Shown: positions 5,278-32,197 of the stretch, in pieces
Layout: every line of letters starts with the position of its first letter
Position numbering within the stretch: the stretch's first letter is position 1
Assembly: GCA_003132425.1 (NCBI GenBank)
Contig: PKXS01000124.1
Location: 92,472 to 124,819 of the forward strand
Direction: 5' to 3'
Origin: Gammaproteobacteria bacterium
GTDB taxonomy: Bacteria > Pseudomonadota > Gammaproteobacteria > Steroidobacterales > Steroidobacteraceae
DNA: 32,348 bases
Notes under the pieces: generated by a model
Database searches by the model: none
What the model was told of the DNA's origin: nothing
The model's input: only the letters and a program-made list of their open reading frames with translations
Made by a program: the position numbers and the translations under genes

Positions 5278-5423
5278 CACTTTCTAGTCGCGCGGGATTG
5301 AAATGGGCAAGTTCCCGACATCTTTGCGCGCAATATCGAAACACGGGTCTTGCAAGGCGATGCATGCTCGAAGTGTAGAGCTCGCCGCGCGTGGCGGGCG
5401 GAGGTCGTAATCCAGGTGCCTCA

Positions 5424-7889
5424 ATGGTCGCACAAGTGAGTACTAAGGTACTGCCGGACCAGGCCCGCGTGGTCATCGTCGGCGGGGGCATTATCGGCTG
5501 CTCAATCGCCTACCATCTTGCGAAGCTCGGATGGCGGGACATCGTGCTGCTGGAGCGCCAGCAACTGACGTCGGGAACCACCTGGCATGCGGCCGGGCTT
5601 CTGACGACGCTGCGGGACACGGAGACGCAGACGCGCCTGGCGAAGTACACCCAGGAGCTATATCGGAAGCTTGAGGCGGACACAGGCCAGGCCACAGGCC
5701 TCATTGGCTGCGGTTCGATCCAACTCGCGATGACGGCGGACAAGGCCGAGGAGATGCGGCGCGGCGTCAATATGGCGACTAGTTTCGGGGTGGAGGCTCA
5801 CGAAGTAAGCCCGGCCGAGGTGAAGTCCATGTGGCCGCTTGCCGACGTCGGCGATCTGGTGGCGGCCTTCTACTTCCCGAACGATGCGCGCGCCAATCCC
5901 ACCGACGTCACGCAAGCACTGGCGAAAGGCGCCCGGCGCGGCGGCACTCGGATCTTCGAGCACACGAAGGTCATCGGCATTACGACGGACCGGGGGCGGG
6001 TGACGGGCGTGCAAACCGACGTCGGCGCAATCCGCGCGGAGTTCGTAGTGAATTGCGCCGGAATGTGGGCGCGAGCCGTTGGCCAGATGGCCGGAGTCAA
6101 TGTTCCGCTGCAGGCCGCGGAGCATTATTATTTGATTTCGGAGCCAGTGGCCGGCGTGCACTCGATGCTGCCGATTCTCCGCGACCCGGGAAACTCGGCC
6201 TACGTCCGCGAGGAGGCGGGAAAGATCATGGTCGGGCTGTTCGAGCCCGTAGCAGCGCCGTGGGGGACAAACGGCATTCCGGACGATTTCAGCTTCGGTG
6301 ATATCCCGCCGGACTGGGACCGTATGTATCCGCACATCGAGAAGTCCATGAAGCGGGTCCCGTGCCTTCTACAGACCGGTATTAAGTTGCTGTTCTGCGG
6401 GCCGGAGTCTTTCACTCCGGACCACAACTACCTCATGGGCGAGGCGCCGAACGTCCGGAACTTCTTCGTCGCCGCCGGCTTCAACTCCCTGGGCATCCTG
6501 TCGGGCGGCGGCGTCGGGCACGTGATGGCCGACTGGATCGTCAATGGCCGCCCACAGATGGACGTGTGGTCGGTCAATTTGCGTCGCATGCACCGCTGGC
6601 AGAACAATGACCGGTATCTCCTCAATCGCACACAAGAGACGCTGGGCATCGGCTATCAGGATCATTGGCCCTTTCGCCAGTGGGCCACGGCGCGCGGTGT
6701 GAAGCAAAGCGTCCTTCATGACCGTGTCGCGGCAGCGGGCGCCTGCTTTGGCGAGTCGGCGGGCTGGGAACGCCCAAACTGGTATGGAAAGCCGGGCAAC
6801 ACGCCGGCGTATTCATACTCCTGGGGGCGCCAGAACTGGTTTCAGAATAACGCGCAGGAGCACGCTGCGGTTCGCGAGCGCGTCGGAGTCTTCGAGCAGT
6901 CGTCGTTCGCGAAACTTCTCGTTCAGGGCCGAGATGCCGTTACAGTGCTCAATCGCGTCGCCACGGCCAATATTGATGTGGCCGTAGGACGATGCATCTA
7001 TACACAGTTTCTAAACACGCGCGGCGGGATAGAGGCGGACCTCACTATCACACGGCTCGCGCCAGATCGTTTCCTAGTCGTCACCGCCGCATTCACACAT
7101 ACCCACGTCGATGCCTGGATTCACGATAACGTTCCTGACGATGCATTCTGCGTCGTGACCGACGTGACGGACGGCTATGCGATGCTGAACGTTCAGGGGC
7201 CATCCTCGCGTGCTCTACTGCAGTCACTCTCGAACGACGACTTTTCAGCCTCGGGGTTTCCGTTCGCCACATGCCGCGAAGTTCGCATCGGGTACCAGAC
7301 CCTGTTTGCACTCCGGCTCACCTACGTCGGCGAGTTAGGTTGGGAACTGTACGTACCGACGTCGTTCGCTCTGCCTGTTTACGATGCCATCGTCGAGGCC
7401 GGCGTCACGTACGGCTTGCACCACTGTGGCTACCATACCCTCAATTCTCTGCGAATCGAGAAGGCCTATCGCGATTGGTCGCATGACATAGGGCCCGACG
7501 ACTCGCCACTCGAGGCCGGGCTCGCATTCACCTGTGCATGGAATAAGCCGGGCGGGTTTATCGGCCGCGACGCTTTAATGGCGCAGCGTGATACCGAATC
7601 GCCGAAGCGCAGGCTGGTACAGCTCATGCTTGAGGATCCGCGACCTCTCCTGTATCACAATGAGCCGATTTACCGCGAAGGGGCGCGCATTGGCTTCGTG
7701 ACTTCGGCTATGTACGGGCACACCCTGGGAGCGGCCGTCGCGCTCGGCTACCTGTCTAATCCCGAGGGCGTGACGGACGAGTTCGTCACCGGTGGGCGCT
7801 ACGAGATTGCGATTGCGGATCGCCGCGTCCCGGCGAGAGCGTCCTTGGTCCCCATGTACGATCCGAAGAGCGTGCGTGTACGGCAGTAG
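5424..7889 (+). CDS. FAD-dependent demethylating dehydrogenase fused to GcvT domain (dimethylglycine/sarcosine dehydrogenase family)
   Basis: This 821-residue two-domain enzyme has the architecture of dimethylglycine and sarcosine dehydrogenases: an N-terminal DAO-type flavin domain (about residues 14-400) and a C-terminal aminomethyltransferase/GcvT folate domain (about 450-815). The dinucleotide-binding turn VVIVGGGIIGCS is at residues 17-26. TSGTTWHAAGLL carries His55, the position that binds FAD covalently in family members. Such enzymes oxidise an N-methyl group and pass the C1 unit to tetrahydrofolate. ATG 5424 is preferred over GTG 5391 because the conserved domain begins soon after it and an AGG lies upstream. 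Neighbours are an AraC regulator, an ALDH and transporters, which suggests catabolism of an N-methylated amino acid or betaine derivative; the exact substrate is not known. Confidence 0.9.
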   Translation: MVAQVSTKVLPDQARVVIVGGGIIGCSIAYHLAKLGWRDIVLLERQQLTSGTTWHAAGLLTTLRDTETQTRLAKYTQELYRKLEADTGQATGLIGCGSIQLAMTADKAEEMRRGVNMATSFGVEAHEVSPAEVKSMWPLADVGDLVAAFYFPNDARANPTDVTQALAKGARRGGTRIFEHTKVIGITTDRGRVTGVQTDVGAIRAEFVVNCAGMWARAVGQMAGVNVPLQAAEHYYLISEPVAGVHSMLPILRDPGNSAYVREEAGKIMVGLFEPVAAPWGTNGIPDDFSFGDIPPDWDRMYPHIEKSMKRVPCLLQTGIKLLFCGPESFTPDHNYLMGEAPNVRNFFVAAGFNSLGILSGGGVGHVMADWIVNGRPQMDVWSVNLRRMHRWQNNDRYLLNRTQETLGIGYQDHWPFRQWATARGVKQSVLHDRVAAAGACFGESAGWERPNWYGKPGNTPAYSYSWGRQNWFQNNAQEHAAVRERVGVFEQSSFAKLLVQGRDAVTVLNRVATANIDVAVGRCIYTQFLNTRGGIEADLTITRLAPDRFLVVTAAFTHTHVDAWIHDNVPDDAFCVVTDVTDGYAMLNVQGPSSRALLQSLSNDDFSASGFPFATCREVRIGYQTLFALRLTYVGELGWELYVPTSFALPVYDAIVEAGVTYGLHHCGYHTLNSLRIEKAYRDWSHDIGPDDSPLEAGLAFTCAWNKPGGFIGRDALMAQRDTESPKRRLVQLMLEDPRPLLYHNEPIYREGARIGFVTSAMYGHTLGAAVALGYLSNPEGVTDEFVTGGRYEIAIADRRVPARASLVPMYDPKSVRVRQ

Positions 7890-12544: not shown

Positions 12545-13180
12545 CTAAATCGATTCGAGATATGCGACCAGGGCCTGCATTTGGTCCCTGGTCAGATTTT
12601 TTACCACTCCGTGCATGACGGGCGCGGTGCGCAACACGCTTTGTATCACCAGCAGCTGCCTGAGCAAGTACGGCGCGTGTTGGCCCGCAAGGCGCGGAAA
12701 AGTGGCCATACCTTGGGCATTTGCGCCGTGACAGCTGGCACAAGGCGGAATCTGTTGGGCCGGCGCGCCTTGGTCAAACAAGCTCTTTCCCTGCGATATG
12801 AGCGCCGGATTGCCGGGCTTGCCTGCCGCGGCGGGCTGCGCGGAAAAATAGGCAGCCAGAGCCGTGATATTCGCGTCGCTCAATTGCGAAGCCATGCCCC
12901 ACATGTAAGCCTGCGCGTCGGGGTCGGCACGCGACTGGTCTTTGAACGCGTGCAGCTGCAATTCAATATAGGGCGCCAACTGCGCGGCCAAGTTCGGAAA
13001 AGTGGGAGACACACTGCGGCCATTGATTCCATGACAAGCAGCGCAGGTTTCAATGGTCTTGTGTAGATCGGCCTTTTGTCCAGCATTCATCGTGTCGGCA
13101 GGGGCAGCTGCACCGTGGACCATACCCGCGAAGCACAGTGACGTGCCGATTGCGAGGGCGAGAATGTAGCGAGAGTTCAT
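12545..13180 (-). CDS. Periplasmic di-haem cytochrome c4
   Basis: A 211-residue precursor with a signal peptide (LALAIGTSLCFAGMVHGAAA) and two c-type haem motifs, CAACH (46-50) and CASCH (147-151), in two homologous halves, as in cytochrome c4. Each half has FPxLAxQxAPY after the haem. Candidate distal methionines are in YMWGM and APVMHG. Cytochrome c4 carries electrons in the periplasm to terminal oxidases. The start is ATG 13180, which overlaps the stop of the upstream gene in TGATG, implying translational coupling; a longer start at 13195 would overlap further. Its partner is an outer-membrane barrel with its own haem site, so the pair may carry electrons between outer membrane and periplasm. 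Confidence 0.92.
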   Translation of the reverse strand: MNSRYILALAIGTSLCFAGMVHGAAAPADTMNAGQKADLHKTIETCAACHGINGRSVSPTFPNLAAQLAPYIELQLHAFKDQSRADPDAQAYMWGMASQLSDANITALAAYFSAQPAAAGKPGNPALISQGKSLFDQGAPAQQIPPCASCHGANAQGMATFPRLAGQHAPYLLRQLLVIQSVLRTAPVMHGVVKNLTRDQMQALVAYLESI

Positions 13181-14583
13181 CAGAAATTCAGCCAAACCAA
13201 CAAGTACGCGGTGTTGTTGTTGCTGGCGTTGCGGCCGCTGCCGTCATAATTGGTGCTTTGGCCGTTGAATTTCTGATAACCGACATACTGTGCCTGTAGT
13301 TTCGTATTGAGCCACGGCAGGTAATTCACCTCGAGTATGTAGCCATTGGTGTCGGGACTGTTGTTTGCGCTGCCGGTGAGCGGTGCGACGGCATAGAGAA
13401 GCGCATCGGTACTTCCGGTTGTGCTGAAGTATCCGATCGACCCGCCAATCCGTCGCTGGTAATAGTATTCGCCGGTCAGCTTGAGGGTCTTTAGATTGTT
13501 GTCGGCGTTGGCGGCAAATCCATCGAGAACGCTGGCATTGAGGGTTTGGTGCTCGCTGATATACGTCGCAAGGGCCGTGAACAAATGATCTTCGCCGATG
13601 AATTGATACTGGATGTCCGCAGCGGCGTCCCTGAACTTATCGGTGACGCCGGCGAGCGCTGTGCCGTTTCCCGGATGAACGCTGGCATCCAAGCCGAAGA
13701 CGCCGACCTCCAGGGAATTGCGGTCCCAGCGTTGCTCGTACGCCAAGCGCCAGTAAGGCGCCGCCCCCTGGACCACGTTGGCCTGGGTGCTGTCCAGAGG
13801 ATGTGCGCCCCCCGGTATCGCCGAAGTGTAATCGGTTATCTCAGCGTAAAAGTGATCATCGAACCACGCATAAACGCCGAGGCCTCCCACGCTCTGGCCG
13901 AAGCCTCCGGCACCGCTGTCGACCTTCGCCGAGGTACTGGAGCCGGGCGCGGTACTGCTATTGGAGTACGGAAACCCCCAGGCGGGCGTGGTGTTCCACA
14001 CGTCTTGCACCGTTGGGTTGTTATTCAGGGTGACGCCCACAATCAAACTGTGGCTGTTGCCGTCATTGCCGCCGAACGACAAATGGTGTGCATAGCGAAT
14101 GTCGGTGTTGTCGAGTCCAAAGTGATCTTCAACGCCGTCGTAGGTGAGCTGCACGAAAGCCCCCAGTCCATCGGCGATTTTGCCAGCGTAAAAAAAGCTC
14201 ACCTGTTGTGGAAAGTTCAGTTCGCCGTCTTTTGCGAGGGCACCAGTGATCGCGCTGTCCGGCAGCGCCTTACTCGTATGGGTATAAGAAATCTGCACCA
14301 TTAGACTGACGGGCGGTATGGAATTGAGCGCGAGCGTCTGATGATTCGTGGTGTCAATTCCCGTGACTTGTTTGATGTTGTCGAGCACGTAGCCGTTGAG
14401 CTTGAACTCCCGACCAAAAGGCGTCAGCTCCGGAAACACGGTGTGACACGCGGCGCAGGCCATGCCCGTTTGGCGAGCGAAGCTGGGTACCGCCCAGCTA
14501 GGAGTGACCGTCGCGCAAAACAATGCCAGCGCGAGAAGCCCCAGGCGCCCGCCGGGCATCTCAACGCGGCGACAGCGGATCAT
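13180..14583 (-). CDS. Outer-membrane beta-barrel with N-terminal monohaem c motif
   Basis: A 467-residue precursor with a signal peptide (LGLLALALFCATVTPSWA) followed at once by one haem c site, CAACH (43-47), in the context FARQTGMACAACHTVFPELTPFGREFKLNGY. The remaining 400 residues alternate polar and hydrophobic residues with many aromatic strand ends and finish in NF, as expected for an outer-membrane barrel. This cytochrome-porin fusion layout resembles Cyc2-type iron oxidases and related uncharacterised porins, but overall similarity to Cyc2 cannot be judged here. AAGGAG precedes the ATG. The gene ends in a one-base overlap with cytochrome c4. Role in extracellular electron exchange is inference; a porin with structural haem is the alternative. 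Confidence 0.85.
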   Translation of the reverse strand: MIRCRRVEMPGGRLGLLALALFCATVTPSWAVPSFARQTGMACAACHTVFPELTPFGREFKLNGYVLDNIKQVTGIDTTNHQTLALNSIPPVSLMVQISYTHTSKALPDSAITGALAKDGELNFPQQVSFFYAGKIADGLGAFVQLTYDGVEDHFGLDNTDIRYAHHLSFGGNDGNSHSLIVGVTLNNNPTVQDVWNTTPAWGFPYSNSSTAPGSSTSAKVDSGAGGFGQSVGGLGVYAWFDDHFYAEITDYTSAIPGGAHPLDSTQANVVQGAAPYWRLAYEQRWDRNSLEVGVFGLDASVHPGNGTALAGVTDKFRDAAADIQYQFIGEDHLFTALATYISEHQTLNASVLDGFAANADNNLKTLKLTGEYYYQRRIGGSIGYFSTTGSTDALLYAVAPLTGSANNSPDTNGYILEVNYLPWLNTKLQAQYVGYQKFNGQSTNYDGSGRNASNNNTAYLLVWLNF

Positions 14584-14718: not shown

Positions 14719-14747
14719 TCCGCCACGACATCGGCTGGACTTTCACT
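14719..14747 (+). pseudogene. Possible remnant of a lactate permease 3' end
   Basis: These 29 bases match 12417-12445 within lctP with only three mismatches and on the same strand. Translated in the corresponding frame they read VRHDIGWTF against IRHNMGWTF in the intact permease. Nothing else of a permease is visible on either side. The simplest reading is a decayed fragment of a second permease gene left by rearrangement. Its complement now supplies the TGA stop codon (14743-14745) of the quinoprotein-like gene. Too short to be certain. Confidence 0.4.
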
Positions 14748-16377
14748 GCAGCAAGCCGAAAACCGCCACGCTTACCGTCGTGCCGACGAACACTTTGCCG
14801 TCGGCAACGGTCGGCGTGATGTATTTATTGCCGGCGCCAAAGTGATCTCGATTGTTGGCAGCCTGATTGCTGTTGTAAATCTCATGCCCAAGATTGCCCG
14901 CGTCGTACGCGTGCAGCACGGCTGGACTGACGTTCTCGTGAGCCCAAACGATCGCGTTGGACGTGCCGTTCGCGGACACGCTCGGTGCGCTGCCGGGATA
15001 GGCGAACTGCGCAGTGCTCTGCGACTTCGGCGCCGCCGATAATTTCGCGCCGGCGAGCGCAAACGCCTTGAGCGTGGCGCCGGAATCCGCGTAATACACA
15101 TAGCCGTTGAAGTACGCCGGCGTGGACCAGACTCCGGACGGCACGGCCGCGTTTACCTGCTGGTAGATGTTGTTCGAGGATGCGCTGAACTTGCCCATAG
15201 AATCCCGATCGACGATGTAGATGTTGCCGTCCTTGCCGGCGCCGACCATTAGATGCCGGACCGTGCCGGTGGCATCGGTCAAGTCCGGCAGCAGCAGCGC
15301 ACCGCCCGAGCCGAGATCCTCATCGACGGCCGATTCGGCCACCGTGTTCGACAATGCAAAATAATCCGCGACGCTCATGGCGCCGCCGGCGGTGGAGATC
15401 TTGAGGAACGAATTGCCGTAGTCCTGGCCGCTCGGAAACCCGTTCGCATCCAGCGTCGTGTCGAAGACGCCGTTTGCCGTCAATAGGTAGATATTGCCCG
15501 CCGCATCGGCGGCCGGGCCGCCGCCGCTCATCCAAATCGCCGGGCCCTTGCCGCCGCTGTTCGGCGCGACATTGAGAACGGCGCCGCGGATCAGCGAGCT
15601 CTCGGCATAGGCGATGATCCAGCCCATATAGGGTTGGTTGTCGCAATGCGAGGTCCAACTCGTGTAGACCGAACCGTTGAGCAGGAGCAGGGCGGCCCGC
15701 TCTTCGTACTGCCCGGGATCAAAGGTGCTGGTTCCGCCGCCGGAGGTGGGATATGTGGCCGCAATTTCGGCAGGCCCATTCAATAGTTCGGCGCCGCTGG
15801 CGAGGTCGAGCGCGTGCAGCCGCTGGTGATAGTTTCCGGCGCTGTCCTTCGTCATCGCGACCACGTAAATGGTGCCATGCACGCCGGCGCTGCGATCGAT
15901 CACCGGTGTCGCGGTGATGCCGATTTCCGGCGTCACCTGTCCGCAGCCGTGCGCATCACTGGTGGTTTCTGCGGATCCGAGCAGCGAGACCTGCCACAGT
16001 GTCGCGCCGCTATCGGAATCGAAAGCGTAGACCGAATCGTGTTCGGTCGCCGCGTACAGCACATTGTGAGAGGCGCCCGCTATGCTGAAGTGCGATACAT
16101 AGAGCGGCTGCGCGTCCACCTTGCCGTCCACCGCCAAATTGCGCAGCAGACCGAAGCTCGCCGGGGCGACGTTGGCGAGAGTGAGAGTCGTTTCGGTAAG
16201 ATTTTGACCGCTGCGATTCAAATCATTCTTGTACGTCGACACATCGGTGCCCGGGCCCGCCGCGGGCGGCGGGGTCATCGCCGGAGGGGCAATGGAGGTC
16301 CCAGGGGAACCGCCGCCGCAGGCAGCGAGGAGCGCAGAAAGAATCGCCGTGAATGCGAGCTTAGCGTGCTGGTGCAT
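14743..16377 (-). CDS. Quinoprotein-like beta-propeller lipoprotein
   Basis: The 544-residue product starts with a lipoprotein signal peptide; the lipobox LAAC puts the lipidated cysteine at residue 20, followed by GGGSPG and a Pro/Ala-rich linker. The rest is a beta-propeller with PQQ-like blade motifs (VLYAATEHDSVYAFDSDSGATLW, IYVVAM, HAYDAGNLG). No haem motif and no clear PQQ catalytic Asp motif (WDY) is visible, so it may be a binding or scaffold propeller and not an enzyme. AGGGGA lies seven bases before the ATG. It begins 20 bases after dmmD and so probably belongs to the end of the trimethylamine operon, followed 159 bases later by the cytochrome pair. Function unknown. Confidence 0.8.
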   Translation of the reverse strand: MHQHAKLAFTAILSALLAACGGGSPGTSIAPPAMTPPPAAGPGTDVSTYKNDLNRSGQNLTETTLTLANVAPASFGLLRNLAVDGKVDAQPLYVSHFSIAGASHNVLYAATEHDSVYAFDSDSGATLWQVSLLGSAETTSDAHGCGQVTPEIGITATPVIDRSAGVHGTIYVVAMTKDSAGNYHQRLHALDLASGAELLNGPAEIAATYPTSGGGTSTFDPGQYEERAALLLLNGSVYTSWTSHCDNQPYMGWIIAYAESSLIRGAVLNVAPNSGGKGPAIWMSGGGPAADAAGNIYLLTANGVFDTTLDANGFPSGQDYGNSFLKISTAGGAMSVADYFALSNTVAESAVDEDLGSGGALLLPDLTDATGTVRHLMVGAGKDGNIYIVDRDSMGKFSASSNNIYQQVNAAVPSGVWSTPAYFNGYVYYADSGATLKAFALAGAKLSAAPKSQSTAQFAYPGSAPSVSANGTSNAIVWAHENVSPAVLHAYDAGNLGHEIYNSNQAANNRDHFGAGNKYITPTVADGKVFVGTTVSVAVFGLLQ

Positions 16378-16397: not shown

Positions 16398-17531
16398 TCA
16401 GCCCACCGCCGTGCGCTTCTTCTTTTCCACATCGTCGAAGGGTAGAGTGTGCGCCGTCGCTGGACCCTTGATGTTCTTGCCGCGGATCTCCAGCTTCGCG
16501 CCGTGCACCGCGGCAGGCACCGCGAGGCGCGCGATGGCCATCGACTTGCCGGTCAAGCTTGACGCCATCGCGCAGGTGACGACGCCCACTTTTTTGCCTG
16601 CCGCGTACACGGCATCGCCCATGTCCGCGGGCGCCTTACCGTCCACCAGCAGACCGAAGATCTTGAAGCGCTCCTTGCCCTTGAGGCGGTAGTGAGCATC
16701 CGCGCCGTGAAAGTCATTCTTTGCCGGGCTCACCGTGAAGTCCAGGCCAAGCTCCCACAGGCTGTCGCCCGGCGGGTCGTGCTCGAAGGGATACATCTGC
16801 GACATGTCGTAGGGATAGAAGAGCAAGGAGCTTTCCACGCGCAGCCAGTCAAGCGTGGTGAAACAGGTGGGAATGACCCCCATCGACTTGCCCTCGCTCA
16901 CGACGGTGTCCCATATCAATCCGGCATCCTCGGCCTTGCAGAAGATCTCGTAGCCGCGTTCGCCCGTGTAACCGGTGCGGGAGATCGAAACCGGCCGGCC
17001 GAATAGGGTCGCGGGCATATGATGAAAATACTGCAGATCGCGGATCCCCGGGACATGCTTCGCCAGGAAATCGACGGCGATGGGTCCCTGCAGCGACAAA
17101 TCGTGCAGATCGTCATCGACGATCATCGAGGCGTTGCGGCCGACGACATACTGCGTCAAGGTCTCATGACCGGCACCGCTGCCATGCACCACCATCCACG
17201 AGTTCGGGCCGGTCCGGTACAGGATGCAATCTTCGATAAAGTGCCCGGCCTCGTTCAGCATGCAGGCGTACGCCGATTTGCCCGGATAGATCTTGGTCAC
17301 ATCCCGAGTCGTGGCGTAGTTGAGGACCGCTGAGGCATGCGGGCCGACGAGGTGCAGCTTTTTCAGCCCCGACACATCCATCAAACCCGCCTTGGTGCGG
17401 ATCGCCACATGATCCAGGGCCACATCCTTGGCGTAGGTCCACGCAGTGCCCATACCGTTCCAATCCTCAAGTTTCGATCCGAGCGCGCGATGCCGATCGC
17501 CGAGGACCGAAGTACGCCAACTAAGTGCCAT
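16398..17531 (-). CDS. dmmD: DmmD: GcvT-like tetrahydrofolate-dependent subunit for dimethylamine demethylation
   Basis: A 377-residue single-domain protein of the aminomethyltransferase (GcvT) family, cytoplasmic. Visible family stretches are DHVAIRTKAGLMDVSGLKK near residue 40, GPHASAVLNY, and SRTGYTGERGYEIFCKAEDA in the central domain. Next to DUF3445-type oxidative demethylases this protein binds tetrahydrofolate and captures the formaldehyde-level C1 unit as methylene-THF. ATG 17531 is chosen because GGAGG lies six bases upstream; the ORF track extends to 18122 only because the frame stays open through dmmC in another frame. It follows dmmC by 47 bases and is followed by the quinoprotein lipoprotein gene. 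Confidence 0.9.
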   Translation of the reverse strand: MALSWRTSVLGDRHRALGSKLEDWNGMGTAWTYAKDVALDHVAIRTKAGLMDVSGLKKLHLVGPHASAVLNYATTRDVTKIYPGKSAYACMLNEAGHFIEDCILYRTGPNSWMVVHGSGAGHETLTQYVVGRNASMIVDDDLHDLSLQGPIAVDFLAKHVPGIRDLQYFHHMPATLFGRPVSISRTGYTGERGYEIFCKAEDAGLIWDTVVSEGKSMGVIPTCFTTLDWLRVESSLLFYPYDMSQMYPFEHDPPGDSLWELGLDFTVSPAKNDFHGADAHYRLKGKERFKIFGLLVDGKAPADMGDAVYAAGKKVGVVTCAMASSLTGKSMAIARLAVPAAVHGAKLEIRGKNIKGPATAHTLPFDDVEKKKRTAVG

Positions 17532-17578
17532 GTTCGCCTCCAGAGTGTTCCATTGTGAGCGCAGTGGGCGTTTCGCGT

Positions 17579-18622
17579 CTATTCCGGCGCCGTGCCCGAG
17601 GTGGTCGGCGCGCCGTCGTCGAACGGCGCCAGCCATTCGACCGCGGCGTCGCGGTAGCGCGTCAGTCCCTTGTAGTCGACCAGCGCCGGATGCAGGGCCC
17701 TCAGCACGCGGTGCACGCGGCGCGCCCATTTCGGCACCGTCGCCAACTCGCGCAGGTTGATCAAATAGCAACGGATGCCGAACACGATCGCATTGCTGCG
17801 CGGCAATCGCCACAGTCCCTGCAGCTCGACCCGCAGGTGCACGAGGTCCCCGGCGTTTTGCGCCGTTACGGTGGCGCGGTCCGAGCCCCATTTGTGATAG
17901 TTCTCGGGCGAGGTGTCGAGGCGCGGGTGCACCGTCATGGTCCAATTTAGCCTGCGAACCGGCTGCCCTAAGCGCAGGTTCAGCAGGAACTTCAACGCCC
18001 GATCGAACACGCCGAGCTCGTGCGCCAGCGGTACCGGACCGTGCCATTCTCGGAAGTTCATGCTCATATCGAAGTCCAGCGACCAATCCGCTTGAGTCGT
18101 CACCATGCCGGCCTCGAGCCACAGGTCCCCATCGCGCTGATCCATCACCACGAAGTCGCCTTGCGCCTGCCGTGTGATGTAGTCGAGCGGCTGGCGCGGC
18201 AGGCTGTCCGCCTCGCCGAAGGTAAAGCGCTGATCAATACTTAACGGCCGGTTGATCCAATGCCAATCATTGCCCCGGCGGCTAAGCGAGAAATGCTCCG
18301 GGTAGTCGCGCGCCAGCGACTCCATGATCAGGTCGAGGCAGTCCCATTGGGAACTCATCATATGCGGCAGCGCCTGGAAGCGCAGCGGCTCGGCGGCGAG
18401 CACCAGCTCGCGTTCGCGGCATTCCGCGATGTAATGCTCATCGACATCGAAGGCAAATTCGGTGACCGATCCCTTCGCTCCCGGCAGGTGCGGTTCGATG
18501 TTCACCGAATACATGTATTCGTCTTCCGCAAAGGGCAACGGAAAACGGCGTATGGTCGCCGGACTGTTGCTGAACCTAAAATCATCGCGGAACGTCTCAT
18601 CGGCTTTGAAAACGGCGCTCAT
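17579..18622 (-). CDS. dmmC: DmmC: haem-dependent oxidative N-demethylase catalytic subunit (DUF3445)
   Basis: A 347-residue cytoplasmic protein of the DUF3445/HODM alpha family, recognised from the overall sequence pattern (HMMSSQWDCLDLIMESLARDYPEHFSL, HWINRPLSIDQRFTFG, QGDFVVMDQRDGDLWLEAG, MNFREWHGPVP, NWTMTVHPRLDTSPE). Family members have a PAS-like fold with bound haem and use O2 and electrons to convert dimethylamine to methylamine plus formaldehyde. Electrons come from the flavin/Fe-S partner encoded immediately upstream (dmmB), and the C1 product goes to DmmD. The gene starts 11 bases after dmmB. Letter names follow the dmmDABC usage for marine bacteria as I remember it; the protein family is certain even if the letters are not. 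Confidence 0.92.
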   Translation of the reverse strand: MSAVFKADETFRDDFRFSNSPATIRRFPLPFAEDEYMYSVNIEPHLPGAKGSVTEFAFDVDEHYIAECRERELVLAAEPLRFQALPHMMSSQWDCLDLIMESLARDYPEHFSLSRRGNDWHWINRPLSIDQRFTFGEADSLPRQPLDYITRQAQGDFVVMDQRDGDLWLEAGMVTTQADWSLDFDMSMNFREWHGPVPLAHELGVFDRALKFLLNLRLGQPVRRLNWTMTVHPRLDTSPENYHKWGSDRATVTAQNAGDLVHLRVELQGLWRLPRSNAIVFGIRCYLINLRELATVPKWARRVHRVLRALHPALVDYKGLTRYRDAAVEWLAPFDDGAPTTSGTAPE

Positions 18623-18633
18623 TCGATTCCTCC

Positions 18634-19596
18634 CTATAAATCAAGCACCAGGCTCTTGCAGCGCGCCCGCGACACGCAGGGCATGATGCTCTTGGCCTTG
18701 GCCTTGTCGGCGTCCGAGAGATAATGGTCGTTGTGCAGCAGCTCGCCGTCCAACTCGAGCACGCGCGTATGGCAAAAGCCGCAGACGCCGCCGCGGCACA
18801 GGTAGGGCACTTCGACGCCGGCAGCCTCGATGCTCTCGAGCAGGCTGCGGTCCGGCGGCACGTGCACGCTCAGCTTGGATCGGGCGAGGAACACCTCGAA
18901 GGCATCGCCAACGGGCGGAGCGCTGAATTGCTCCCAGTGAATATGGCTGTCGGACCAGCCATAGGCCCGCGCGGTCGAGATGACATGCTTGATCATGCCG
19001 GCAGGTCCGCAGACGTAAACATGCGTACCCAGCGGCTGGTTCGCGAGCAGTGCATCGAAGTCGATCAGTTGCTGTTCGCTGTCGTAGTACATGCGCACCC
19101 GGCCGCCCTCGCGCCGCTGCAGCCTGTCCAAAAATGCGGCGTGTTCGGGCGAGCGGACCGAATAATGCAGCTCATAGGGTACATCGCCGCCGTGCAAATC
19201 CTCGAGCTGCGCCAGTATCGGGGTAATTCCGATCCCGCCGGCTATCAGCAAATGCTTGCGCGCGATCTTATCGAGACCGAATAAATTCACCGGGTGGGCG
19301 ATTTCCAGGCGACTGCCGACTCGCACGCTGTCATGCATGAAATGCGACCCGCCGCGAGATTCCTCTATGCGGCGCACGCCGATTTCGTAAGCCCCAAGCT
19401 GATGCGGCGCGCTGAGCAGAGAATAGGGATTGCGGTGCACGCGGGTAGCGCCGTTCATGACCACGATGATGTGCGAGCCCCCGGAGAATGCCGGGAGGTC
19501 GCCTCCTTCGGGCAGCGCGAGCTTGAAATGCTTGATGAGGGGCGTGATCTGCTCCACCCCCACGACTTGCACGGCGATGGTCTGCGCATCGTTCAT
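18634..19596 (-). CDS. dmmB: DmmB: flavin and [2Fe-2S] reductase subunit of dimethylamine monooxygenase
   Basis: A 320-residue reductase of the phthalate-dioxygenase-reductase type. In order: a flavin-binding barrel (RNPYSLLSAP is the flavin contact), a pyridine-nucleotide domain (LLIAGGIGITPILAQ, VYVCGPAGMI), and a C-terminal plant-type ferredoxin with cysteines at 267, 272, 275 (CRGGVCGFC) and 307. It would pass NAD(P)H electrons through FMN and the cluster to the haem subunit DmmC. The start codon overlaps the dmmA stop in ATGA, indicating coupled translation. Phthalate dioxygenase reductases also serve Rieske oxygenases, but no Rieske protein is encoded here and the neighbours fix its role. 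Confidence 0.93.
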   Translation of the reverse strand: MNDAQTIAVQVVGVEQITPLIKHFKLALPEGGDLPAFSGGSHIIVVMNGATRVHRNPYSLLSAPHQLGAYEIGVRRIEESRGGSHFMHDSVRVGSRLEIAHPVNLFGLDKIARKHLLIAGGIGITPILAQLEDLHGGDVPYELHYSVRSPEHAAFLDRLQRREGGRVRMYYDSEQQLIDFDALLANQPLGTHVYVCGPAGMIKHVISTARAYGWSDSHIHWEQFSAPPVGDAFEVFLARSKLSVHVPPDRSLLESIEAAGVEVPYLCRGGVCGFCHTRVLELDGELLHNDHYLSDADKAKAKSIMPCVSRARCKSLVLDL

Positions 19597-20204
19597 GCGA
19601 ATACCTCCTTGACCGGAGGCAATTCGCCCGGCGCTTCGGCATCGGCCATCACGCCCATATAGGCCGCCAGGCGCCGCGAGTAATGGTCGCGCACCAGCAG
19701 CCAGCGCTCGCAGTCGATGCAGCGCACGATATTGGTCCGCACGTTCTCGGTGGTGGCGCGGCAGTGAATGCAGTACACACGCCGCGCCAGCGAGCCCAAT
19801 TCTTCGGCGCGGACCTCATCTTTATTGAGGTTGAATTCGAGCGCAATTTTCATGGCGAGGCCGATGAAGCTCTCCGGGCCCGCGACATACAGACGCGTGC
19901 CCATCAAGGACCGCGTAAGTACCGCCCGGAATTCCTGCAGCAGCGCCTGGGAGTCGTCGAAGAGGCGCAAACCGGATAGCTTCGGCGCCTCGAACGGCGC
20001 GAGAGTCTCGGCGTCGCAATCGGTGGGTACCAGCAGCACTTGAGTGTTCTTTAGCGCGTGGGGCGCTTCGGTTTGCAACTCTGCCAGCACGCGCAGCAGC
20101 GCGCCGCCGCCGGACCCGAGACCGAGCATGAGATGGTAGCGCCCGTCGCTGTCGGCCTGCAAAGGCGCGTAGACAGGCTTGCTCTTGATTCCCGTGACCA
20201 GCAT
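19593..20204 (-). CDS. dmmA: DmmA: accessory subunit of dimethylamine monooxygenase
   Basis: A 203-residue protein whose N-terminal part resembles a nucleotide-binding reductase-like domain (LMLGLGSGGGALLRVL, TRLYVAGPESFIGLAM) and whose C-terminal part has a zinc-ribbon-like cysteine set at 145, 148, 162 and 165 (CIHC...CIDC) followed by RDHYSRRLAAYMGV. This combination is characteristic of DmmA-like proteins found beside DUF3445 demethylases. Its exact role in electron transfer or assembly is not established. The start codon lies five bases from the end of a large palindromic element and has no good ribosome binding site of its own. It overlaps dmmB by four bases. Confidence 0.85.
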   Translation of the reverse strand: MLVTGIKSKPVYAPLQADSDGRYHLMLGLGSGGGALLRVLAELQTEAPHALKNTQVLLVPTDCDAETLAPFEAPKLSGLRLFDDSQALLQEFRAVLTRSLMGTRLYVAGPESFIGLAMKIALEFNLNKDEVRAEELGSLARRVYCIHCRATTENVRTNIVRCIDCERWLLVRDHYSRRLAAYMGVMADAEAPGELPPVKEVFA

Positions 20205-20208
20205 GGTT

Positions 20209-20480
20209 AGGAGCCTATCTGAGTATTCCGCGTGAGCCGCGTTGGCCGGGCGAGGGAGCGGATGCTAGGCGCGCGGCGCAGGCCGTAGCGGGGACTACGG
20301 ACCAGCCGCGCAACACCGCAGACGCCCCTCCCCCGGCCAACCCTTTGGGACCGGGCAGATTTCGCTTCATCCATTGTTGTCGCCTCCTTATTGGGTTTCG
20401 ACCCAACCGCGTCGGCTCCGCCTCGGCTGAAGCGAAATCTGCCAGGGTCGCGGCCACGGGGAATACTCAGATAGGCTCCT
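20209..20480. mobile_element. 270-bp palindromic element (MITE-like) with 21-bp terminal inverted repeats
   Basis: The outer arms AGGAGCCTATCTGAGTATTCC (20209-20229, quoted here as its first 20 bases plus one) and its exact complement at 20460-20480 are perfect over 21 bp. They extend about 12 bp further with one mismatch and one gap. TTA flanks both sides (20207-20209 and 20480-20482), a possible 3-bp target duplication. Inside are two further long stems: 20241-20256 with 20326-20341 (15 of 16 paired) and 20354-20369 with 20428-20443 (16 of 16). Each encloses a smaller hairpin: CCGTAG/CTACGG (20283-20300) and TTGGGT-TTCG-ACCCAA (20391-20406). There is no transposase ORF, so it would be non-autonomous. 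It separates the permease from dmmA. Confidence 0.75.
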
Positions 20481-22186
20481 TAGTACACCGCGAGCCGATG
20501 CGTGACCGCGACCACGGCGATCCCCGCCGCTAACACCACGAAGGGCCAGATGCCGGCGCGCTTGATCTGCGATTCGCCGTTGTTGTGGCCCAAATCCTCG
20601 GCCATGTCCGCAGGAAAGGATCCCTTGTCCTGAATATAGTGACGGTAGATGAACACCGGGATGACCAAGGAGCAAAAGGCGAGGCCGGTGCTCAATGTTC
20701 CCACGCCGTACACGTCGGCGCCGAAACCCATAAACGCCAGATTCACGAAGGACAGACACGCGCCGGCCGCCAGAACCCAGGTGGGCGCGCGCCAGGGCCG
20801 CTCTTGCGTGGCGCGATCGAGGCGGTGAATCCAACCGGCATTCAAATTGAGGAAGTTGAAAATCATGTAACCGACATTGGCGGCGCCGATCACGAACACG
20901 GAGTCGGACATCAGCAACAGCACCAAGTTGAAGCACAGGTCCGTGAGCATGGCGTTCGACGGCGCATGATGCCGGTTCACCTTGGACAAGTATTTGGGAA
21001 GCCAGCCGTCGACCGAGGCTTGATACAGCGTGCGCGACGAGCCGGCCATGGAGGTGATCAACGACAGCACCAGCGCGAGAATCAGCATCACGACGACGAT
21101 AGCGCCGACGAAGCGGCCCGCATGCACCATTTTCGCCATGACTGCCGCAACGCCCATGCCGCTGTAGATGTCGGGCGCGAGCATGCCGCCATAGACCGCC
21201 GGCGCCGTCACCCTGCCGGCCGCATCGAGCACCGCGGGCTGGACGAGCGTTCCCAAGCCCAAGAACCCCTGAAAGGCAAAGGGCACCAGGGTGTACACCA
21301 CCACGCACAACAGGCCGGAATAGAAAATGGCCTTGAAGGTGTCCGTCTTCGGGTTCTTCAGCTCCGACGTGTAGCACACGGCCGTTTCAAAACCATAGGT
21401 CGACCAAGCGGCCAGAAACATCCCGCCCGCCAACACCGTAATGCCGGTCATGTTCCAGGTGCCGCTGAGAACATGACCCATGGTGTCGTGCGCCAGCGGC
21501 ACGAGCGGAAAGAAGTTGGTCCTGACGATATCGCCCGTGAGAATAGGGACCACGCCGATCAGAATGAGCGGGATCATCGCCGAGATCCCTAGGATCTTGG
21601 TGGTGTTGGCAGAGCGCAAGATGCCGCCGTCCTGAATGGCTTTGACCGAGAACAAGATCACGGCGCCGAGCAAGAACGCCGCGTTGACGCGCAAGGTCAG
21701 GCCGCTCTTGATGGATCCCAAATCGAGCAGCGTGATCTGCCAGGTGTTGATGAGCGAATCCGGCGCGAAAAGCGCGGTCAAGATGTAGCCGGCAGCCAGC
21801 GCCGAACCGGTGGCTTGCACCGGCGACCAGGCGAACCAGTTGCACCACACGGAGATGGGCGCGATAATTTTGCTATACCTGACCCACGCTATCGCACCGT
21901 ACACCGACGTGCCGCCGGACTTGTTGGGAAACAGTCCGGCGATCTCGGCGTAGGTGAACGATTGAATGAAACCCAGCGCGATCGAGGCCGCCCAGATGAC
22001 CCAAGACAGCTTGCCGACCGTGGCCGCCACCGCGCCGATCGAAAATAACACCAGCGGCGGCACGCCGCTCGCCACCCAGAAGGCGCCGGTCCAGTCGATG
22101 CCGCGTTCGAGACCATCGGCTTGCAGCGCGAGGGCGCTTGCGGTTTCTGCGTTAGAAATGACGGCGTAACTCCTCGGCGATTTCAA
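20480..22186 (-). CDS. APC-superfamily amino acid/amine permease
   Basis: A 568-residue protein with about 12-14 membrane spans. The N-terminal region ([46 protein letters not shown]) is the conserved first third of amino acid-polyamine-organocation transporters, with the glycine-rich break in span 1 and the ExxGxFP motif. The start is TTG 22186 with AGGGGA about six bases upstream, overlapping the end of etfA by 35 bases. Its TAA stop is the flanking trinucleotide of the palindromic element. Placed between ETF and the Dmm genes in a trimethylamine operon, it may carry methylamines, a methylated amino acid or a product across the inner membrane (inference). Confidence 0.87.
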
Positions 22187-23108
22187 AGATGTCCCCTACG
22201 ATGCCGTACTTGGCAACGCCAAAAATCGATGCCTCGGCGTCGCTGTTGACGGCGACGATGGTGGTCACATGCTTCATGCCGGCCAGGTGCTGGATCGCTC
22301 CGGACACGCCCATGGCGATGTAGAGCTTGCAGGCGCTGGCGGTCTTGCCCGACTGTCCAACTTGACGGCTCTTGGGCAACCAGCCGGCATCCGCGATGGG
22401 TCTGGAACAGCCGAGCGTGGCGCCGACGGCGTCCGCCAATTCACGAAACTGCGCGACTTTTGCTTCCTCGCCGATGCCGCGGCCGATGGTCAAGATGAAC
22501 TCGGCGCCCGCCATGTCCACATCGTCGCCGGCGCCTGCTTCGATGAACTCGCGCGCCGTCGAGCGGCTCACCGTCGCCGGTGCCTCGAATGCGCTCAGGC
22601 GCGGGGAGGCGGGCTGCTCCGGCGGCTTGAATACATTGCCGCGGATGGCGAGCAGGACGGTGCTGCGACCGGGAAATTCGACTTCCACGTTGACCTTTTG
22701 GCCATAGCCGCCGCGCGTGGCGAGAAGTTCGCCGTCGATGCGCTGCACTTTGAACACGTCGGTCGCGAATCCAAAGCCATGGCGTGCGGCGAGCGCCGCC
22801 GCGTAGCCGAATGAGTCGACGCTGTGTGCGACCAACACCACGTCAGGGTGCCGCTGTGCAATCAAGGCGCCCACGGCGGACTCGAAGGTGTCGGGGTCGA
22901 ACTCCGCGAGCGGCACTTTGACGGTGATGATTTCATCGACGCCTACGAGTTTCAGCGCGCCGGCGATACTCTCCGGCGCAGCGCCGATGATCGCCACGGA
23001 AACCTCATCTGCGCCCCGGCGCAGGCCCTGCGCGGCGCTCACGACTTCGAGCGACACGGCTCGCAGCTCGCCGCGCCGCTGCTCGGCGATCACCAACACG
23101 CCGCTCAT
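22152..23108 (-). CDS. etfA: Electron transfer flavoprotein alpha subunit
   Basis: This 318-residue protein has the two-part layout of ETF alpha: an N-terminal domain paired with EtfB, and a C-terminal FAD-binding domain with the signature [23 protein letters not shown] followed by [17 protein letters not shown] and [22 protein letters not shown]. With EtfB it forms the soluble carrier that accepts electrons one at a time from dehydrogenases, including trimethylamine dehydrogenase, and delivers them to a membrane quinone reductase. Its ATG overlaps the etfB stop by four bases (ATGA), and the TTG of the permease lies inside its 3' end. The gene order with TMADH strongly suggests dedication to trimethylamine oxidation. 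Confidence 0.96.
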
Positions 23109-23905
23109 GGCGCCTGTCCCTTGAATTCGCGAATGATGCCGGCGAGGCGCTGGGCTTGTTGCGCGGCATCGCCTTCGATGATCTGGGCGCGGCCCTTATC
23201 GGGGAGGTACATGCGCCGCACCCGCGACGCTGATCCCGCTTCGCCCACATCGGCGGCGGATAGACCAAGATCGCTCAAGGACAACACCTCGATCGGCTTT
23301 GCCGCGGCCTGTTTGATACTGCGCAGCGACGCATAGCGCGGCGTGTTGATCCCTAACTGGATGGTCAGCACCGCCGGGCATTGAATCTGCACTTCTTGCA
23401 AGACCCCGCCCTCCAGCTCGCGGCGAAAGACGGCGCTCTTGGCTCCCGGTGAGTAGCTTAAGGAACTCACCACCGCGGCATGCGGCCAGCTTAAGAACGC
23501 GGCCGCGGCGATTCCGGTGGCTGCGAATGCCTGATCGGAGGACTGGACGCCGGCAAACAGCATGTCGGGGGCCTCGCGTTTAGCCACGGCGGCCAGCACC
23601 CTTGCGACGGCAATGGGATCGGAGCCCTCGGCCGCCGTGTCCCAAACCCGAATGGCGCGATCCGCGCCCTTCGCCAGGCACTTGCGCAAGGCTTCGTCCG
23701 CCTCCGCGGGCGCCACCGAAACGACGACTACCTCCAGCGGTTCGGCCGTGGCCTCCTTGATTTTCACCGCCTCTTCCAAAGAGAAGTCATCCCATTCATT
23801 CAAGTCGCGAATGAGAAAATCCGGGTTCACGTCGCGCCCATCGTCGCGGATTTCGAAATCCTCATCGAGCGCCGCTACCTGCTTGACCGGCACCAAGATT
23901 TTCAT
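23105..23905 (-). CDS. etfB: Electron transfer flavoprotein beta subunit
   Basis: A 266-residue ETF beta subunit. Family features visible include the start MKILVPVKQV, the LNEWDDFSLEEAVKIKE segment, ALRKCLAKGADRAIRV, and DMLFAGVQSSDQAFAATG near residue 125, all part of the domain that holds AMP and contacts partner dehydrogenases. It pairs with EtfA. The ATG overlaps the last codon of the membrane Fe-S gene by four bases, and its own stop overlaps etfA, so the three genes are translationally linked. The order Fe-S oxidoreductase, etfB, etfA resembles the dgcB-etf arrangement of dimethylglycine catabolism in pseudomonads. Confidence 0.95.
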   Translation of the reverse strand: MKILVPVKQVAALDEDFEIRDDGRDVNPDFLIRDLNEWDDFSLEEAVKIKEATAEPLEVVVVSVAPAEADEALRKCLAKGADRAIRVWDTAAEGSDPIAVARVLAAVAKREAPDMLFAGVQSSDQAFAATGIAAAAFLSWPHAAVVSSLSYSPGAKSAVFRRELEGGVLQEVQIQCPAVLTIQLGINTPRYASLRSIKQAAAKPIEVLSLSDLGLSAADVGEAGSASRVRRMYLPDKGRAQIIEGDAAQQAQRLAGIIREFKGQAP

Positions 23906-26022
23906 GCGGGCAGCGCTGCAGCGCGGCGCTCGGGAATGGCTTCGCGGATGAGCTCGATCAATTCCTTGACCACGAACTTGCCCTCATTGCCGGTGGTCTT
24001 CAGCGCGTCTTCGAACATGGTCAAATCCTTCGGGCAACTCACGACATACACCTCGAGCCCCGGGATCGCCGCGGCTTCCTTGATGCGATTCTGCGCGGGT
24101 TTTTCACTACCGACCGGGTCGGGAATCCATATCCTGCCGCCGCCGGCGCCGCAGCAAAACGAGTTGGCCCGGCTGCGCCCCATTTCCACGAGCTCACAGC
24201 CCAACAACTTCAGGACTTCGCGCGGCGCTTCGTAGCCCTTGTTGAACCGGCCGAGATGACAGGGGTCGTGGAAAGTCGTGCGATATTTGAGCGGCTGGGT
24301 GACACGCAAGCTGCCGCTCGCGAATAGCTGCTTGACGAAGCTGGTGTAGTGCTGAATGGGATACTTGCCGCCGAAGTCCGGATATTCATTACGAATGGTA
24401 TTGTAGGAATGCGGGTCCGTGGTGACGATGGTTTTGAAAGTAGCGCCCTTGAGCGCGGCGACATTGGCGTTCGCCAGCACCTCGTACAGCCCTTCCTCCC
24501 CGACTCGCCGCACGTCATTGCCGGCATTCGATTCGCCGTCGTAGAGAATCCCGAAATCCACCCCCGCCTCATGCAGGAGCGAGGCAAAGAGTTGCGTCAC
24601 TTTTTGATTGCGCGGATCGAACGATGCGTAGTCGCCGACGAACCACAGCACATCGACCGGCTCTTTGCGGGCGTCCTTGACCGGAAACGGCAATGACTTG
24701 CTCCAACCGCCGCGCTTGCGTTTCGATTCACCGAAGGAGTTGCCGGTTTTGTGAATGGTCTGCAGAGTTTTGGCGAGCAACGGGTCCATGGCGCCGTCCT
24801 CGACCAGCTTGCGCCGCATTTGCACGATGATGGGCACGTGCTCCACGGCGACCGGGCAGATCTCGACGCAGGCCATGCAGGTGCGGCAGGACCACAGCGT
24901 CTCCATCGCGACCTGTCCCGGCGCTTTGCCGTGAATGTCCAGTTCCGCAGCGGCCGGAAGTACGCCTGATTCCAAGGTGGCATTCGCGAACTCGCGCAGG
25001 CTCAAGATTACATCGCGCGGCGACAACGGCGCGCCCACCGCAGTGGCGGGGCAGGCTTCATGGCAGCGGCCGCACTTGGTGCAGGCATCCAGGTTCAGCA
25101 GCTGCTTCCAGTTCAAATCGGTGATTTTCGCGGCGCCCGGCCGTGCCTGCGACTCAGGGACTCGCGCCAATCGCTGCGCCGCCAAGGGGTCGCGGACCAT
25201 CAAGGACGCCGCCGCCGTGAAAATGTGCTTTACCTTGGTAAACGGAATCAACGCGATGAACACGAGCGCGATCAGGCCATGGAACCACCACAGGCCGTGC
25301 CGCAAGCTACCGCCGCCGTGCGCGGTCAATCCCAGCGCACTCATGCCCTCGGCAATCAGCGCGCCCACCGGCGACCACCAGCGGGTATCCCAGACGTCCG
25401 GGCGCGCTTGCAGCCACACCAACCGGGCGGCTTCGAGCAGGTAGCCGGTGAGGCCGATGATCATCAAGGTCCAGAGGAAGGCCCAGTCCTCACGCCGATA
25501 TTGCGGCCGGTTGAAATCCGGGTCCTCCGGCAGCCGATCGGGTCGCGCATAGTCGAGCTTCGGCAGCGCCAGCCAGCCGCGCCGATACATCATGTAGGCG
25601 AGACCGCCGATGAGAGCGACGCCGGCCGCATCCAGCACCAAGGAGAACCATAGGTAGAATTTACCCTGCCAAAATTGAATCCCGAACAGCGGTTCGAGAA
25701 TGTCGTATTGCAGAGTGATCGTGGTGGTGCCCAAGAACAGCAGCACAAAGCCATAGAATATTAGGCGATGCGCCCCGCCCGCCGCCGGGTCGCGACGGTC
25801 GATGGTGCGATGGTTGAGTACCTTCGCGGCCATATCGCCTAAGCGCGACCAAAGGCTGCCCTCGAGTTGCAACGCGGCCCCGCGCCAGTACTTGCGGATC
25901 TGCACATAGACGCCGTAGCAGAAGATCGCGATCGCGCCGTAACCCAGCACGTAGAAGAGCCGCACTTCGGCTACGGAGAACGCCTCGAACAGGATCCGAG
26001 TAACGGCGTCAGTGCGGCTCAC
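23902..26022 (-). CDS. Membrane Fe-S oxidoreductase, probable ETF:quinone reductase (DgcB/HdrD-like)
   Basis: A 706-residue protein. The N-terminal 280 residues contain about five membrane spans with histidines placed as possible haem b ligands (His85, His242, His248), like the NarI-type domain. Two [4Fe-4S] motifs follow, CTKCGRCHEACP (Cys314, 317, 320, 324) and CRTCMACVEICP (379, 382, 385, 389). The C-terminal half has a CCG domain (HDPCHLGR and NSFCCGAGGG) as in HdrD and GlpC. Related proteins beside ETF genes, such as DgcB, are thought to move electrons from ETF to quinone, and no classical ETF:ubiquinone oxidoreductase is encoded here. It starts at GTG 26022, in the same frame as TMADH, seven codons after its stop. 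Confidence 0.9.
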   Translation of the reverse strand: MSRTDAVTRILFEAFSVAEVRLFYVLGYGAIAIFCYGVYVQIRKYWRGAALQLEGSLWSRLGDMAAKVLNHRTIDRRDPAAGGAHRLIFYGFVLLFLGTTTITLQYDILEPLFGIQFWQGKFYLWFSLVLDAAGVALIGGLAYMMYRRGWLALPKLDYARPDRLPEDPDFNRPQYRREDWAFLWTLMIIGLTGYLLEAARLVWLQARPDVWDTRWWSPVGALIAEGMSALGLTAHGGGSLRHGLWWFHGLIALVFIALIPFTKVKHIFTAAASLMVRDPLAAQRLARVPESQARPGAAKITDLNWKQLLNLDACTKCGRCHEACPATAVGAPLSPRDVILSLREFANATLESGVLPAAAELDIHGKAPGQVAMETLWSCRTCMACVEICPVAVEHVPIIVQMRRKLVEDGAMDPLLAKTLQTIHKTGNSFGESKRKRGGWSKSLPFPVKDARKEPVDVLWFVGDYASFDPRNQKVTQLFASLLHEAGVDFGILYDGESNAGNDVRRVGEEGLYEVLANANVAALKGATFKTIVTTDPHSYNTIRNEYPDFGGKYPIQHYTSFVKQLFASGSLRVTQPLKYRTTFHDPCHLGRFNKGYEAPREVLKLLGCELVEMGRSRANSFCCGAGGGRIWIPDPVGSEKPAQNRIKEAAAIPGLEVYVVSCPKDLTMFEDALKTTGNEGKFVVKELIELIREAIPERRAAALPA

Positions 26023-26043
26023 GTGCAGTGCTCGGTCATGCTC

Positions 26044-28447
<2,404 letters not shown>

Positions 28448-29868: not shown

Positions 29869-32097
<2,229 letters not shown>

Positions 32098-32197
32098 GGC
32101 GGATGCTCCCAATGATCGGTTTCAAGCTTGCACAATACGCAATAAAGTTGCTCCACAGTAAACTTTTGTGCTTATATTCGACTATGGTAACCCCGCC

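Follow-up and report, generated by a model that had tools for sequence, protein, structure and literature searches.

A Cyc2-type cytochrome-porin gene overlapping a cytochrome c4 gene in a Steroidobacteraceae genome, with a probable role in Fe(II) oxidation

Overview of the gene pair

A window of 32,348 nucleotides from a Steroidobacteraceae genome (GCA_003132425.1, contig PKXS01000124.1) was analysed, and two adjoining genes on its minus strand were identified as those of a Cyc2-type outer-membrane monohaem cytochrome-porin and a Cyc1-like diheme cytochrome c4. The pair probably represents a Cyc2 of the rus-operon type of A. ferrooxidans together with a Cyc1-like c4, which pass electrons from extracellular Fe(II) through the porin haem and the c4 to an oxidase, as a side-input in a mixotroph. 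The porin ORF (13180..14583, minus strand, 467 aa) is assigned from the reading frame, full-length family matches, a tree and a barrel model. The c4 gene (12545..13180, minus strand, 211 aa counted from the ATG) is assigned from its matches to PF00034 and 1h1o_A.

According to the first-pass annotation, a gene with a single CAACH overlaps a c4 gene by one base, and the sequence bears out both the coordinates and the strand of this arrangement. The overlap is the TGATG at 13178..13182 (minus strand), in which the porin stop codon TGA (13182-13180) and the c4 ATG (13180-13178) have one base in common. An alternative in-frame start of the c4 gene, TTG, lies at 13195, 15 bases upstream of the ATG. 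On the 3' side of the c4 gene a lactate permease gene is found in convergent orientation. Both proteins are presumably made from one transcript.

Sequence and predicted structure of the porin

The porin begins with a probable Sec signal peptide of 31 residues (residues 1-31, ending in ALALFCATVTPSWA; 14491..14583, minus strand), whose cleavage site was placed by eye. The sequence then reads AVPSFARQT-GMA-CAACH, and the CAACH (14443..14457, minus strand) is the haem c attachment site and the sole CXXCH in the ORF. It continues as CAACHTVFPEL, so that a PXL motif, PEL (14425..14433, minus strand), lies four residues past the CXXCH. C12, C15 and H16 of the mature porin are invariant in all 143 rows compared, and conservation within the porin family is highest in the haem segment. 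Outer-membrane barrels usually end in Phe, and Phe is also the C-terminal residue of this porin, which would be located in the outer membrane.

By the published criteria (PMC8406198), a Cyc2 protein has AXPXFAR[QK][TY] ahead of its only CXXCH and PXL behind it, is no shorter than 365 aa and includes a porin of 16 strands. All of these are found here, namely AVPSFARQT (14467..14493, minus strand), one CAACH, PEL (the latter also described in PMC8406198), 467 aa and a predicted 16-strand porin domain. No model of Pfam or NCBIfam recognises the porin, which is not unexpected for a Cyc2, since the porin part of these proteins is poorly conserved (PMC8406198). Searches of PDB sequences with the porin, either as a single sequence or as a profile, also returned no relative.

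The first-pass annotation had guessed at a barrel and had named structure prediction as the check, and the AlphaFold2 model, built from 79 aligned sequences, is a confident barrel of 16 long strands (pLDDT 86.4, pTM 0.87). By the model and a PDB fold search, the barrel domain covers mature residues 61-436 (13183..14310, minus strand). In the PDB, Foldseek matched the fold best to OmpF-type porins, at E about 1e-8 and at query TM-scores near 0.45-0.5. Ahead of the barrel the model places a short haem-bearing N-terminal segment. Confidence drops to 58-66 at its residues 1-20 and to below 50 in two stretches of residues 41-57, and therefore the exact position of the haem is not fixed by the model. 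The single haem c would sit in or under the barrel mouth, near the periplasmic N-terminus. No distal haem ligand conserved across all Cyc2-like proteins was found. Met64 of the mature porin is present in 91% of the full-length group described below, and it is not claimed as the distal ligand, since it is absent from the distant Cyc2-like proteins.

Relation to known Cyc2 proteins

When 369 genomes of the class were sampled, two kinds of match to the porin emerged, those of full length and those limited to the N-terminal haem region. One full-length match, in genome G263, heads a rus operon in which the genes follow each other on one strand in the order cyc2-cupredoxin-coxB-coxA-coxC-ctaA-ctaB-rus; the names other than that of rusticyanin are our reading of the translations, and rusticyanin itself scores 137.2 bits, slightly below the curated cut-off of 146.7. 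Over the full length, this rus-operon Cyc2 and the window porin share 39.6% identity. In a careful tree, the full-length group, with the window porin and the rus Cyc2, is split from 18 Cyc2-like proteins with N-terminal matches only (support 100/100), and the same separation is seen in a quick tree. The Cyc2 identity is thus upheld by the published signature, the grouping with the rus-operon Cyc2 and the 16-strand barrel with its N-terminal haem segment.

The A. ferrooxidans pathway is defined by the rus operon, and since the Cyc2 of such an operon groups with the window porin, these comparisons of sequences suggest that the porin belongs to the published Cluster 2, the rus-operon Cyc2 serving here as a proxy for labelled reference proteins.

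A further Cyc2-like gene was observed on a plasmid of A. ferrooxidans YQ-N3 (L091, 5890-7257), and a Cyc2-like gene on an Acidiphilium cryptum plasmid has equal match figures. Transfer between acidophiles is possible for these copies.

The cytochrome c4

The c4 protein contains two PF00034 stretches (8.4e-21), and its haem sites are CAACH at 13031..13045 and CASCH at 12728..12742, both on the minus strand. Its best PDB match is 1h1o_A, cytochrome c-552 (2.8e-41, residues 41-211), which is the c4 of A. ferrooxidans (CYC41, Cyc1); other c4 proteins in the PDB follow behind it at about 1e-28. With two c domains that each carry a CXXCH and 1h1o as the nearest PDB structure, the partner is a true cytochrome c4, as had been proposed. 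In the rus operon, Cyc1 is a c4 and its gene comes second (PMC10654088).

Conservation of the pairing

The porin and the c4 had also been described as a compact two-gene module, and this agrees with the conservation of the pairing. Among 80 close relatives from genome collections, 78 were testable, and 73 of these have an ORF with two CXXCH directly downstream on the same strand; with this frequency, the adjacency is not due to chance. The gap between the genes is nearly always within 100 bp, and a true overlap is the arrangement of a minority. The five relatives (5/78) with no adjoining diheme cytochrome c include all three from Gemmatimonadota. Most full-length porin matches elsewhere in the class have no adjacent c4, and the link between porin and c4 is a property of the branch of the window porin.

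Across the loci, as read with a crude gene caller, the c4 is the sole generally conserved neighbour of the porin; clustering of all neighbouring ORFs was confounded by antisense frames in this high-GC DNA. HiPIP genes lie beside the pair in six relatives (L013, L032, L036, L066, L067 and Caballeronia SBC1). The porin also occurs together with c-type cytochromes on plasmids of Caballeronia, Methylocystis and Ideonella, and in the first two the cytochromes adjoin it.

Other genes in the window

Upstream of the porin and on the same strand, a lipoprotein-like beta-propeller with weak matches to PQQ families is encoded at 14743-16377 (minus strand). As it has no relative at other porin loci, the idea that it forms a third member of the unit was dismissed. 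Farther on, a methylated-amine cluster at 16398-22186 (minus strand) comprises a GcvT-like protein, a haem-dependent N-demethylase (HODM_asu-like), a ferredoxin reductase and a DmmA-family protein, and its permease passes the NCBIfam cut-off for TMAO permease. The genes at 22152-28236 (minus strand) resemble demethylation electron chains, with EtfAB-like genes, an Fe-S/membrane electron-transfer protein and an OYE-type oxidoreductase. These genes and the DAO-GCV_T protein at 5391-7889 (plus strand) suggest further N-methyl catabolism. A PQQ-dependent alcohol dehydrogenase with a C-terminal cytochrome c domain is encoded at 29869-32112 (minus strand).

Host genome and distribution

Within the family Steroidobacteraceae, a match to the porin is present in 103 of 217 genomes. 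In the genus, by our count, 18 of 22 further genomes have a strong one, which makes the porin near-core there. Beyond this, the porin family extends across Gammaproteobacteria, Gemmatimonadota, Acidobacteriota and plasmids of heterotrophs.

At 96.6% completeness, the host genome contains haem-copper oxidases, with three COX1 genes, and gives five matches to HiPIP, of which one is a remnant. On one of its contigs, by our reading, a caa3-type oxidase adjoins c4-type and PQQ dehydrogenase genes. Neither RuBisCO nor rusticyanin was found in this genome, which leaves the classic iron-oxidation pathway without its remaining parts; the MtrA-type decahaem model TIGR03508 also has no match. A second copy of the porin, on contig C79 of the same genome (L090, 1501-2940), is decayed, with its N-terminal part missing and an internal TGA, and is followed by an open c4 gene and a HiPIP remnant.

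Proposed function and alternative explanations

From the features described above, the pair would exchange electrons with a partner outside the cell, the c4 being the electron partner of the porin. Fe(II) would be the donor and the electron flow would run inward. Outside the cell, Fe(II) would give up an electron to the porin haem; the c4 would collect it in the periplasm and, alone or with HiPIP, carry it to a haem-copper oxidase. In an organotrophic host, this would be a side-input of electrons (mixotrophy) and not the basis of autotrophic growth. Several observations speak against this reading: RuBisCO and rusticyanin were not found, an adjacent c4 is lacking at most full-length matches elsewhere in the class and after cyc2 in the inspected rus operon, and the Cyc2-like proteins as a whole share no distal haem ligand.

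The opposite direction, with electrons sent out by the c4 and passed on by the cytochrome-porin to Fe(III) or humic quinones outside the cell, is considered unlikely. It follows what has been proposed for the second isoform of Cyc2 in A. ferrooxidans, and Cyc2/Cyc1 isoforms in acidithiobacilli have been assigned to ferric iron reduction (PMC10715153). The host looks organotrophic and its periplasmic dehydrogenases, including a PQQ dehydrogenase, would leave it electrons to spare, and the closest relatives include MAGs from peat (palsa, bog) and soil. However, a single haem and a high-potential c4 suit uptake better than the export of low-potential electrons, and haem-copper oxidases exist as an inward sink.

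With inward flow retained, the donor may be something other than iron, such as reduced humics, Mn(II), sulfur species or extracellular redox shuttles, and Cyc2 would then be a general device for electron uptake. The wide spread of the porin family, reaching to the plasmids of heterotrophs, is in keeping with this, and the function of Cyc2 is unproven outside known iron oxidisers (PMC8406198, PMC12442345). Yet the Cyc2 proteins tested biochemically, one per cluster, do oxidise Fe(II) (PMC8406198), and a non-iron donor is regarded as distinctly improbable.

Cytochromes c4 commonly serve oxidases by themselves, but it is very hard to believe that the porin is an ordinary solute porin with a structural N-terminal haem and no trans-membrane electron transfer, next to a c4 of the respiratory chain, when the haem segment is so conserved, the c4 adjoins it in nearly all testable relatives and the porin group includes the rus-operon Cyc2.

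Comparison with known systems and significance

Fe(II) oxidation by the pair, the preferred reading, has its closest parallel in Acidithiobacillus, whose rus operon starts with cyc2-cyc1 (PMC10654088). In both cases a monohaem cytochrome fused to a 16-strand porin is followed by a diheme c4, and the likeness extends to the 40% full-length identity with a rus-operon Cyc2 and to 1h1o as the nearest PDB relative of the c4. Unlike the rus operon, no cup, cox or rus genes lie downstream of the window pair, and the host differs from the Acidithiobacillus type in its lack of detected rusticyanin and RuBisCO. In the one rus operon inspected here, that of G263, no c4 gene lies between cyc2 and cupredoxin.

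The common architecture and the signature motif are also found in the Cyc2 of Mariprofundus ferrooxydans PV-1, of Cluster 1 (PMC8406198). In contrast to the window group, the distant Cyc2-like proteins compared here, which carry no cluster label, match over the N-terminal part only and fall outside that group. In Acetobacteraceae, Cyc2 occurs beside a mono- or diheme cytochrome c, and the association with HiPIP is similar as well (PMC10715153). These bacteria belong to a different class. In the window the partner is a 1h1o-type c4, and among the genomes of the genus the porin is near-core. Apart from these, MtrAB, MtoAB and PioAB likewise have a haem-bearing outer-membrane barrel, but with 26 strands and a separate decahaem protein, and none of these complexes was found in the host genome.

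Within Steroidobacteraceae, MAG 28 from acid mine drainage was given as Cyc2-positive and with carbon fixation (PMC8357290); in the host genome no RuBisCO was detected. The relative L018, matched to this MAG 28 by name only, has a 67% identical porin with an adjoining c4 gene. Both the adjacency of Cyc2 and Cyc1 and the presence of Cyc2 in Steroidobacteraceae are thus already published, and the gene pair is unsurprising to a specialist. The regularity of the pair across soil-type bacteria is mildly interesting.

The c4-coupled branch of Cyc2 is near-core in a soil-type gammaproteobacterial genus and has relatives in Gemmatimonadota and Acidobacteriota. As a tentative proposal, somewhat doubtful at present, this branch may be a standing two-gene device for electron exchange in organotrophs lacking RuBisCO, for mixotrophic oxidation of Fe(II) or humics, with a physiology distinct from lithoautotrophic iron oxidation. 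What Cyc2 does beyond the known iron oxidisers is acknowledged to be an open question, and a small two-gene unit conserved in soil-type bacteria with no detected RuBisCO, and found on plasmids of cultured species, would make this question testable. It would also warn against the use of cyc2 alone as a marker for autotrophic iron oxidation.
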